A stretch of 64,000 nucleotides of DNA, from the NCBI GenBank assembly GCA_021740915.1, contig JAIOYW010000005.1, positions 124,001 to 188,000 of the forward strand, read 5' to 3'. Below are positions 29,973 through 33,137 of this stretch, one piece after another. Position numbers and translations under genes: made by a program. The notes beneath the pieces were generated by a model, which ran no database searches, had not been told where the DNA came from, and saw only the letters and a list, made by a program, of their open reading frames with translations. The stretch comes from Ignavibacteriales bacterium. Its GTDB lineage: Bacteria; Bacteroidota; Ignavibacteria; Ignavibacteriales; Melioribacteraceae. Numbering within the stretch: position 1 is the stretch's first letter; each line of letters begins with the position of its first letter.

Positions 29973-31346
29973 ATGAAAAAAAACATCAGGATTGCATCTG
30001 GTCAGGGTTTTTGGGGTGATCTGATTGACGCTCCTTATATGCAGGTTACTTCAGGGGATATTGATTATCTTGTGATGGATTACCTTGCCGAAGTAACCAT
30101 GTCAATTCTTCAAAAACAAAAAAATAAAAATCCGTCGCTTGGATATGCCAAGGACCTTCCCCCTCTTATTGGTCGGATTCTCCCGCATTGTGTTGAGAAA
30201 AATATCAAAGTAATAACAAATGGCGGTGGTGTCAATCCTTTTTCCTGTGCGGCTGAAATAAAAAAAATAGCCTCTGGATTAGGGTTCGGGAATATTAAGG
30301 TTGCTGTTGTTTCAGGCGATAATATTCTTGAGAACATTGACGAAATTCTTGATAAAGGCTGTTTACTGAATAATATGGACACCGGAGAACCGGTCGAATC
30401 AATTAAGGATCAACTCCTGAGTGCTAATGTTTATTTCGGCGCATTTCCCGTCGTAGAGGCGCTTAGAGCAGGAGCTGATATCGTGATCACCGGCAGAATG
30501 ACTGATACCGGACTTACGCTTGCACCAATGATCTATGAATTCGGCTGGGACAAAACAGATTTTGATAAAATGGCTTCCGGTATCATCGCCGGACATATTC
30601 TCGAATGCGGAGCACAAGCTTCAGGCGGCAATTTTCTTGGCGACTGGAAATCTGTTGATAATTTTGCAAACATCGGGTTCCCTATTGCCGAAGCTTATCC
30701 CAATGGTGAATTTATAATAACAAAACATGATAAACTTGGCGGGCTCGTTAATTTTCAGACAGTCGCGGAGCAGCTCGTATATGAAATCGGAAATCCAAAA
30801 GAATATATCACTCCGGATTGCATCGCCGATTTTACTTCAATAAAACTTGAGGACCTCGGCAACAACCGTGTTAAAGTATTTGGTATTAAAGGATTGCCGG
30901 CTACTCCTTTTTTCAAAGTGTCATGTTCGTATGAAAACGGCTACAGCGCCAATGGGTCACTTACCTATTCGTGGCCTGAAGCACTAACTAAAGCAAAAGC
31001 GGCAGATCAGATACTTCGGGATAGGCTCGATAACCTTAACTTAAAGTTTGATGAAATCCAGACTGAGTATATTGGCTATAATGCCTGCCACGGGCCACTC
31101 TCAGCAGAGATTGATGAGGATCTTATTAACGAAATCACATTAAGATTTGCGGTACGGGCTGCCGATTATAAAACAGTCGAGAGATTTGGGAAAGAACTTG
31201 CACCGCTGATTCTGACAGGACCTCCGTCAGTCACCGGATTCGCAGGCGGAAGACCGCATCCCCATAGCGTGGTTGCTTACTGGCCTGCCCTTATTCCAAA
31301 AGAACTTGTACAGCCTCAGGTAACTATACTGGAGATCGAAAGATGA
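29973..31346 (+). CDS. AtuA-family protein (DUF1446), main domain
   Basis: About 457 residues from the ATG at 29973; an in-frame TTG ten codons earlier is less likely because IRIASGQGFWGD is the usual start of this family. It contains the acyclic terpene utilisation family (AtuA, DUF1446) motifs: VMDYLAEVTM, TNGGGVNP, VVSGDNI, DIVITGRMTDTGLTLAP, and GHILECGAQASGGNF. AtuA is required for citronellol/geraniol degradation in Pseudomonas, but its chemistry is unclear and homologues are widespread where no terpene pathway exists. The next gene supplies the C-terminal AtuA-like domain. No other acyl-CoA or terpene genes lie nearby. Confidence 0.9.
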   Translation: MKKNIRIASGQGFWGDLIDAPYMQVTSGDIDYLVMDYLAEVTMSILQKQKNKNPSLGYAKDLPPLIGRILPHCVEKNIKVITNGGGVNPFSCAAEIKKIASGLGFGNIKVAVVSGDNILENIDEILDKGCLLNNMDTGEPVESIKDQLLSANVYFGAFPVVEALRAGADIVITGRMTDTGLTLAPMIYEFGWDKTDFDKMASGIIAGHILECGAQASGGNFLGDWKSVDNFANIGFPIAEAYPNGEFIITKHDKLGGLVNFQTVAEQLVYEIGNPKEYITPDCIADFTSIKLEDLGNNRVKVFGIKGLPATPFFKVSCSYENGYSANGSLTYSWPEALTKAKAADQILRDRLDNLNLKFDEIQTEYIGYNACHGPLSAEIDEDLINEITLRFAVRAADYKTVERFGKELAPLILTGPPSVTGFAGGRPHPHSVVAYWPALIPKELVQPQVTILEIER

Positions 31347-31654
31347 AGATTAGATTAATAGACATCGCGCATGGAAGAAGTGGCGACAAAGGAGATGCTG
31401 CAAATGTCGGCATTATTGCTTATGATGACATAGGTTTTGAGATAATCAGGAAGCACCTCACAACCGAAAGAGTAAAGGAGCATTTCCACGGAATATGCCT
31501 CGGTCCTGTCGAACGTTACGAAATGCCGAATATCCGGGCAATTAATTTCCTTCTGCACAATACCCTTGGCGGGGGCGGGACTGTCTCATTAAAATTTGAT
31601 GCCCAGGGTAAAACATTAGCTGCTGCTCTTCTCAGAATGGAACTGGAAGTCTGA
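31343..31654 (+). CDS. AtuA-related C-terminal-like small protein
   Basis: A 103-residue protein overlapping the upstream AtuA-like gene by 4 bases (ATGA). It matches the separate small domain that in many bacteria is fused to the C-terminus of AtuA: LIDIAHGRSGDKGDAANVGI, then a C-terminal LGGGGTVSLKFDAQGKTLA. The SGDKGDxANVG motif is strongly conserved. The pair probably forms a complex equal to the fused form. Substrate unknown. Confidence 0.87.
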   Translation: MKIRLIDIAHGRSGDKGDAANVGIIAYDDIGFEIIRKHLTTERVKEHFHGICLGPVERYEMPNIRAINFLLHNTLGGGGTVSLKFDAQGKTLAAALLRMELEV

Positions 31655-31721: not shown

Positions 31722-32823
31722 ATGTTTGACGATCAAAAACGTGAAGTTGGTATAAGTGAAGATAAGATAACGAAACTACGAGGTTATCTTTAAGGTCGAT
31801 AAAAAAGAAAGTGAAATTGCAGCATTAAAACTTCAGAGTGAAGCAAGCGACTTCTGGACTGACCAGAAAAAAGCTCAAAGTGTTCTTCAGAGAATCAAGT
31901 CGCTTCAGAATTCAATCGATCTGTGGAACGGACTAAAAATTTCATACGATCATATTATCGAATTCCTTGAACTTGCCGAGTCAGAAGCTGAAGAAAGTCT
32001 TATCTCTGATATTGATTATCAGATCAATGAATTGTCGAAAAAAGTTGAAGAGGCTGAATTTAATAGTATTCTCAGCGGCAAAGATGATGAGAATGACTGT
32101 ATTCTGACTATTCATTCCGGCGCAGGTGGCACTGAGGCTCAGGATTGGGCTGAAATGCTTATGAGGATGTACATACGATGGGGTGAACAGAATAATTTCA
32201 CAGTAACAATCCTCGATATATTGGAAGGTGATGGTGCCGGTATTAAAAGTGCAAGTCTTGAATTTAAGGGACAGTATGCTTACGGCTATCTCAAAGCAGA
32301 GATAGGTGTTCACAGACTGGTACGTATTTCGCCTTTCGACTCAAATAAAAGGCGTCACACATCATTTGCATCCGTCTTTGCAATGCCGGAAGTTGATGAT
32401 GATATTGAGATTGATATTAACCCGGCTGATCTCAGAATCGATACCTATCGTTCAGGGGGAAAGGGCGGTCAGAATGTTAATAAAGTGGAAACAGCGGTCA
32501 GGATAACGCATATTCCGACTAATACTGTTGCTGCCTGCCAGAGTGAACGTTCGCAGAACCAGAACAAAACTAATGCTTTTAAGATGCTTAAAGCCAAACT
32601 TTATCAACTTGAAATTGCAAAACAGGAAGCTGAAAGAGAAGAGCTTGAAAACTCAAAAATGAAAATTGAATGGGGAAGCCAGATCCGATCCTATGTCTTT
32701 CATCCATATAATATGGTAAAAGACCACCGTACAGATCACGAAACTTCAGATATTCATACTGTTATGGATGGCGACCTTAATACTTTTATTCGTGCATTTC
32801 TGCTGAAATCAGCTACTTTATAA
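31722..32823 (+). CDS. prfB: Peptide chain release factor 2, with programmed +1 frameshift
   Basis: Read as join(31722-31790, 31792-32823), giving 366 residues, close to the usual 365. The ATG at 31722 follows AGAGGA. Frame 0 runs 23 codons to a TAA at 31791-31793; skipping T31791 gives [15 protein letters not shown] and the rest of RF2 in frame to the stop at 32821. Family motifs are intact: the SPF stop-recognition tripeptide in RISPFDSN and the catalytic GGQ in [15 protein letters not shown]2 ends translation at UGA and UAA. The frameshift is the known autoregulatory device of prfB, but the stop here is UAA, not UGA. The stop overlaps the next ATG by one base. Confidence 0.93.
31780..31793 (+). 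promoter_or_regulatory. RF2 programmed frameshift site
   Basis: GAGGT TAT CTT TAA: a Shine-Dalgarno-like GAGG four bases before the slippery CTT and an in-frame TAA. In E. coli the site is AGGGGG TAT CTT TGA. The geometry matches; only the stop differs. The peptidyl-tRNA-Leu slips from CUU to UUU. Confidence 0.88.
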
Positions 32824-33137
32824 TGCCCGATACCGATTTCTTCAGCCGCGTGAAAGATGTTGTTGCCCGAATCCCCGCCGGTAAAGTAACGACTTATGGG
32901 GCAATTGCTGAATTCTGCGGAATCAGATCATCAGCCAGAACGGTTGGCTGGGTATTGAACTCATTAAAAGGAAGCAATCTCCCCTGCCACAGAGTAGTTA
33001 ACAGAACAGGGGCGCTGACTGGCAAATTCCATTTTGATGATCCGTTTCTTATGGAATCCCTTTTAAGATCAGAGGGTATAGAATTTGGACAGGATGAAAG
33101 GGTTATTCTCGAGAGACATTTCTGGAAGCCGGAATAA
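32823..33137 (+). CDS. Small MGMT-family DNA repair protein
   Basis: A 104-residue protein equal to the C-terminal DNA-binding domain of O6-alkylguanine-DNA alkyltransferase: IPAGKVTTYGAIAEFCG, ARTVGWVLNSL, then LPCHRVVNRTGALTGK. Short alkyltransferase-like (ATL) proteins usually have Trp or Ala in place of the acceptor Cys; here PCHRV is retained, so it may still be a self-inactivating methyltransferase. The VGWVLN part differs from the VGxAlxxNP of classical Ogt, with NSL in place of NNP. The ATG shares its A with the stop of prfB (TAATG), so it is translationally coupled to RF2. Confidence 0.87.
   Translation: MPDTDFFSRVKDVVARIPAGKVTTYGAIAEFCGIRSSARTVGWVLNSLKGSNLPCHRVVNRTGALTGKFHFDDPFLMESLLRSEGIEFGQDERVILERHFWKPE

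Follow-up and report, generated by a model that had tools for sequence, protein, structure and literature searches.

A predicted prfB frameshift site with a UAA stop is shared across a family of Ignavibacteriales

The window analyzed here is a 64,000-nucleotide stretch of an Ignavibacteriales genome (family Melioribacteraceae), and it contains a prfB gene whose coding sequence is divided between two reading frames. As the first-pass annotation had read directly from the sequence, frame 0 opens with an ATG at 31722 and closes after 23 codons at an in-frame TAA (31791-31793), with GAGGT TAT CTT just before it; the full reading is ...CGA GGT TAT CTT TAA(G), in which CTT occupies 31788-31790. The +1 frame picks up at AAG 31792 and runs on as RF2 without a break to the stop at 32821-32823, again as annotated (position 32821 is where that stop begins). 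The features of the locus are:

31722..31793, + strand: prfB ORF0, 23 codons from the ATG, closed by the in-frame TAA (the sensor stop)
31779..31784, + strand: internal SD-like sequence CGAGGT, of which GAGGU could pair with the anti-SD ACCUC
31785..31787, + strand: spacer codon TAT (TAT in 60 of 63 UAA genes, TTT in 3 of 63)
31788..31791, + strand: slippery CTT T (CTT in 62 of 62 UAA genes, in a search that permitted other codons)
31791..31794, + strand: stop tetranucleotide TAAG, where TGAC is usual
31792..32823, + strand: RF2 body, read in the +1 frame and beginning with Lys; it carries the SPF and GGQ motifs and stops at TAA 32821-32823

The product was identified as RF2 by a match to TIGR00020 of 509.9 bits (cut-off 370) and by its PCRF and RF-1 domains (Pfam). 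Two sequence traits of prfB frameshifting were present, namely an early in-frame stop with RF2 carrying on in the +1 frame, and an SD-like sequence followed by a 3-base spacer and a CUU-U slip site. The sensor stop is also one that RF2 reads (UGA or UAA in the survey PMC12421855). The site falls outside the canonical UGA-C subtype on both counts, its stop being UAA rather than UGA and its +4 base G rather than C. Cassette anatomy and the TIGR00020 match thus agree with the annotation of a prfB +1 frameshift site that uses UAA.

A continuous RF2 frame, named in the first-pass annotation as an observation that could overturn it, was absent from the window prfB. Upstream of the site, the +1 frame is interrupted by a TAA. 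Because this frame offers no ATG, GTG or TTG before the TTG at 32032, RF2 is listed only as a 263-residue ORF starting there. We infer that making RF2 from this gene takes a frameshift, since UGA is read by RF2 alone and terminates 38 of 91 genes (sampled, with a simple ORF caller).

The site shares with the E. coli-type prfB shift (CUU UGA C) the early stop (codon 24 here, codon 26 in E. coli), the SD-like sequence, the UAU spacer, the CUU-U slip and the RF2 body in the +1 frame. It differs in having UAA instead of UGA and G instead of C at +4, and in the post-shift residue, which is Lys rather than Asp. The CUU UGA CNN arrangement is termed always conserved in PMC5289835, which cites Baranov et al. 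2002. According to the main text of Prince et al. 2025 (PMC12421855), 8,164 motif-bearing RefSeq representatives carried TGA in 98.6% of cases, TAA in 1.4% and TAG in none, which upholds the earlier remark that UAA is uncommon across bacteria. The CTTTAA variants described there, from several phyla, have the same slippery sequence and stop as the site here, and that text judged UAA to be poorly tolerated, without broad fixation in clades.

We searched 164 genomes of the order and classified the prfB of 142; 18 had no match above the cut-off, and four genes were truncated by contig ends (G301, G362, G372, G423). The site state was set by hand in six genomes (G403, G263, G363, G251, G397 and G144, the last being TGA once a chance site was set aside). 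Overall, 65 genes had UAA, 72 had UGA and five were continuous; that is, the frameshift-bearing genes read CTT TAA in 65 of 137 and CTT TGA in 72 of 137. The window's family comprised 49 UAA, 16 UGA and five continuous genes (UAA in 49 of 65 frameshift-bearing), the second family 14 UAA and 53 UGA, and the third two UAA and three UGA. Outside the order, the 31 of 45 genomes examined from the same class yielded 28 UGA, three continuous and no UAA genes (UAA in 0 of 28). Eighty named loci were also considered, six of which were left out as matching genomes of the order; the other 74 comprised 67 UGA, four without a site, two at a contig end and one doubtful UAA. In the doubtful case, the Bacteroidetes contig L202, CTT TAA C lies close to where the prfB site would be expected, unaccompanied by an SD-like sequence. 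Within the family, UAA was found in a closed genome (G188, one contig of 3,300,414 bp) that appears to be Melioribacter roseus; no second member of the window's genus was among the genomes compared. The prfB starts of relatives, whose alignment the first-pass annotation had proposed, are therefore not all of the UGA type: UAA is widespread in the order and, far from being a local oddity, is the majority form of the family and an already published variant.

The state of the site largely followed descent. We built an RF2 tree of 152 rows with the site itself excluded; it is a quick tree with long branches, many of them weakly supported. On this tree the UAA rows need 18 changes, compared with a shuffled mean of 48.5, and the best tree has 17 to 18 state changes. 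One branch, of 30 genomes in 8 genera (SH-aLRT 97), is UAA throughout, and 30 of 31 multi-member genera are uniform in state. As none of the 14 outgroup rows is UAA (each is UGA or continuous), UAA is likely the derived state. A single origin of UAA was rejected by an AU test (p 0.003, on this quick tree with long branches), and because the supported branches alone force just 2 changes, the number of switches is unsure. Judged by these comparisons, the UAA form of prfB is real and inherited across a family. Genome G397, which was left out of the tree, encodes an RF2 with GGK where GGQ is expected; an error in the sequence or a genuine change could explain this.

The remainder of the cassette was equally conserved in UAA and UGA genes, in its SD-like core, spacer, slip codon and start distance alike. 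The ATG lies exactly 23 codons before the stop in 63 of 63 UAA genes of the order, and the same distance was found in its UGA genes with ATG in 69 of 70 and GTG in 1 of 70. An SD-like core is present in 63 of 63 UAA genes, and SD duplex energies are the same in both types (median -7.1), so compensation for UAA by a stronger SD was rejected. Of five genomes searched, three from the family have 16S genes with the anti-SD CACCTCCT. The recurrence in relatives of frame 0, the SD-like core, the spacer, CTT and the stop shows that the site is more than a chance arrangement.

The base that follows the stop changes together with it. Among UGA genes of the order (n=70), +4 was C in 61, T in 6 and A in 3, and with 12 class rows from outside the order included (n=82) the counts were C 72, T 6 and A 4. 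Among UAA genes of the order (n=63), it was G in 33, A in 25, T in 3 and C in 2. With the loss of +4 C, Lys mostly takes the place of Asp: over 145 rows, the first post-shift residue was Asp/Glu in 78/4 UGA genes and Lys/Asn in 58/5 UAA genes. This Lys is encoded by AAG in 33 of 58 cases, against a background of 21% among the 17,244 Lys codons of the regions sampled; counted by genus, the figure is 16 of 31 (p 2e-4, uncorrected for deeper relatedness). The excess suggests that the nucleotide, and not Lys alone, is under selection. Ordinary TAA stops in the sampled regions are followed by G in 39 of 343 cases, and TAAG is thus atypical. According to one review, termination is weakened by +4 C, most strongly at UGA, and favoured by +4 U (PMC5289835). 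We tentatively read the AAG/TAAG pattern as a nucleotide preference at +4. Co-change of stop and +4 base in independent pairs ran mostly in the expected direction, over just 2 supported pairs, which are too few for power.

In the main text of Prince et al. 2025 UAA sites are sporadic, whereas here UAA is the majority form of a family, uniform over a 30-genome branch and followed by a purine at +4. The UAA variant itself is thus already in print, and this lineage looks like an exception to the statement in that text that it is not broadly fixed. We found no earlier report of family-wide UAA prevalence with a linked +4 change in the literature covered, which was mostly outside subscription journals and supplements.

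Several candidate causes of the switch were rejected. Loss of RF1 does not apply, as the window genome encodes an intact RF1 elsewhere (527.4 bits, cut-off 423.25) and, among 76 family genomes, 71 (with the window's own) have an RF1 match above the cut-off. No altered RF2 decoding motif was seen, SPF and GGQ being present in 63 of 63 UAA rows. AT mutation pressure was dismissed on GC medians of 0.358 in 36 UAA-type and 0.359 in 37 UGA-type genomes. Low demand for UGA was likewise discarded, since UAA types do not use UGA less: the median share of UGA stops is 23.5% in UAA-type and 12.9% in UGA-type genomes of the window's family (p 0.015, uncorrected for descent) and 21.8% and 23.1%, respectively, in the other two families (overall p 0.36). 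These stops were counted with a simple longest-ORF caller, run for most genomes on one 20-kb stretch from long contigs.

Our preferred reading, to which we assign a probability of about 0.72, is that of a working prfB +1 frameshift with a UAA sensor and a purine at +4, gated by RF1 and RF2 together, in which RF2 feedback is kept in diluted form. What has been observed is the anatomy of the site, its inheritance across the family and the intactness of the genes for RF1 and RF2; the reading predicts that ribosomes shift there, that feedback operates and that RF1 takes part in it. Ribosomes would pause at CUU-UAA, the internal SD would base-pair with the anti-SD, and peptidyl-tRNA-Leu would move from CUU to UUU, a +1 slip that is the default reading because the anatomy is the known one. 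Translation would then restart at AAG (Lys) and yield RF2. The shifted fraction is expected to fall as the sum of RF1 and RF2 rises, with RF1 counting too. Given an intact RF1 whose family reads UAA, the feedback should be shared. RF2 would still be feedback-controlled, but, because both factors read UAA, the RF2-specific part would be diluted by the RF1:RF2 ratio.

The first-pass annotation had foreseen a feedback that is either diluted or of different logic. The intact RF1 and a precedent in B. subtilis sustain this proposal in kind, while the extent of dilution is not readable from sequence. In that precedent, swapping the stop of the rsbV site to UAA left no sigma-B response to knockdown of RF2 or of RF1/PrmC (PMC8073009), which supports, by analogy, a different logic at UAA. 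In E. coli, RF2 stands at 453 ppm and RF1 at 53.1 ppm, and in Microcystis RF1 exceeds RF2 (PMC4989110); where RF2 far exceeds RF1, RF1 would contribute little and the logic would be nearly unchanged. In a two-factor model, with the rates taken as equal and the shift at the set point as 30%, the open-loop shift at 10% RF2 was 0.81 for UGA, and for UAA it was 0.70, 0.52 and 0.38 at RF1/RF2 ratios of 0.1, 0.5 and 2. On this model, the family's RF1:RF2 ratio would decide between a nearly unchanged and a different logic.

Not far below even odds is the alternative that UAA is near-neutral, either because RF2 dominates the reading of UAA or because autoregulation matters little, with nothing substantial altered. 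The main text of Prince et al. 2025 expects TAA sites to stay RF2-sensitive (PMC12421855), and the several-fold excess of RF2 over RF1 in E. coli points the same way. Removal of the prfB frameshift did not obviously reduce fitness in Flavobacterium johnsoniae (PMC8710568) and had no detectable effect in Pseudomonas fluorescens (PMC13245932). The similar GC of both genome types and the 17 to 18 flips of state would also fit near-neutrality. However, UAA is accompanied by the loss of +4 C and by the AAG excess, it has been retained throughout the 30-genome branch, and in B. subtilis a UAA site responded to neither factor.

A bolder version of the preferred shared-gating reading is tentative, with the odds leaning against it: the lineage may have rewired an RF2-only sensor (UGA-C) into a sensor of joint RF1 and RF2 capacity at UAA, in which UAAG or UAAA resets the efficiency and RF2 synthesis buffers changes in RF1. 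The UGA sensor stop has hitherto been read as a sign of RF2-specific autoregulation, and a UAA-majority family bears on that view. Together with its UGA relatives and a frameshift-free genus, the family offers a natural experiment on the input to which the switch responds and on the reasons for its loss. The cultured Melioribacter roseus appears to be UAA-type, and bench testing is therefore possible.

We consider it unlikely that UAA marks a switch that has weakened and is decaying towards a loss of autoregulation. The frameshift-free genus, represented by five family genomes (L095, L100, L101, L103, L104), has a continuous prfB where the window gene needs a shift, and by eye no SD-like sequence. 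Its genes read CTT or CTC and then AAA, AGG or AGA, giving Lys or Arg rather than Asp after the Leu, as if descended from a UAA form; the genus fits a loss from a UAA ancestor, although its position in the tree is unsure. Against ongoing decay, the cassette is as well conserved in UAA genes as in UGA genes, with equal SD energies.

Slightly less credible still is a compensatory role, in which slow termination at UGAC after loss of RF3 favours a stronger stop. RF3 gave no match above the cut-off in the window genome, and in the order it is present in 15 of 63 UAA and 40 of 70 UGA genomes (Fisher p 1e-4, with three split or partial matches scored present). Yet this association comes from the other two families (2 of 11 UAA, 29 of 40 UGA); in genomes of the window's family at least 90% complete, RF3 occurs in 11 of 37 UAA and 2 of 11 UGA (p 0.70), and a pairs test allowing for descent had just one supported pair.

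Production of RF2 by re-initiation in the +1 frame is very improbable: the first available start there is the TTG at 32032, whose use would cost 80 domain 1 residues that align in relatives, and the frameshift cassette is conserved. The possibility of a sequencing or assembly error, raised in the first-pass annotation, is negligible: the window genome (4.35 Mb in 35 contigs, in which no 16S gene was found) looks like a metagenome assembly, but the same UAA stands at the same place in 64 other genomes of the order, the closed G188 among them.

The neighbours of the window prfB are also of note. A gene for a 104-residue protein (32821-33137) has an ATG that overlaps the RF2 stop TAA; the protein contains a 6-O-methylguanine DNA methyltransferase DNA-binding domain (PF01035) and presumably resembles an alkyltransferase-like protein, and the two genes are possibly translationally coupled. 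The gene directly upstream (31343-31654) encodes an AtuA ferredoxin-like domain (PF23544), and a very similar sequence also lies upstream of prfB in G397 (locus L092).
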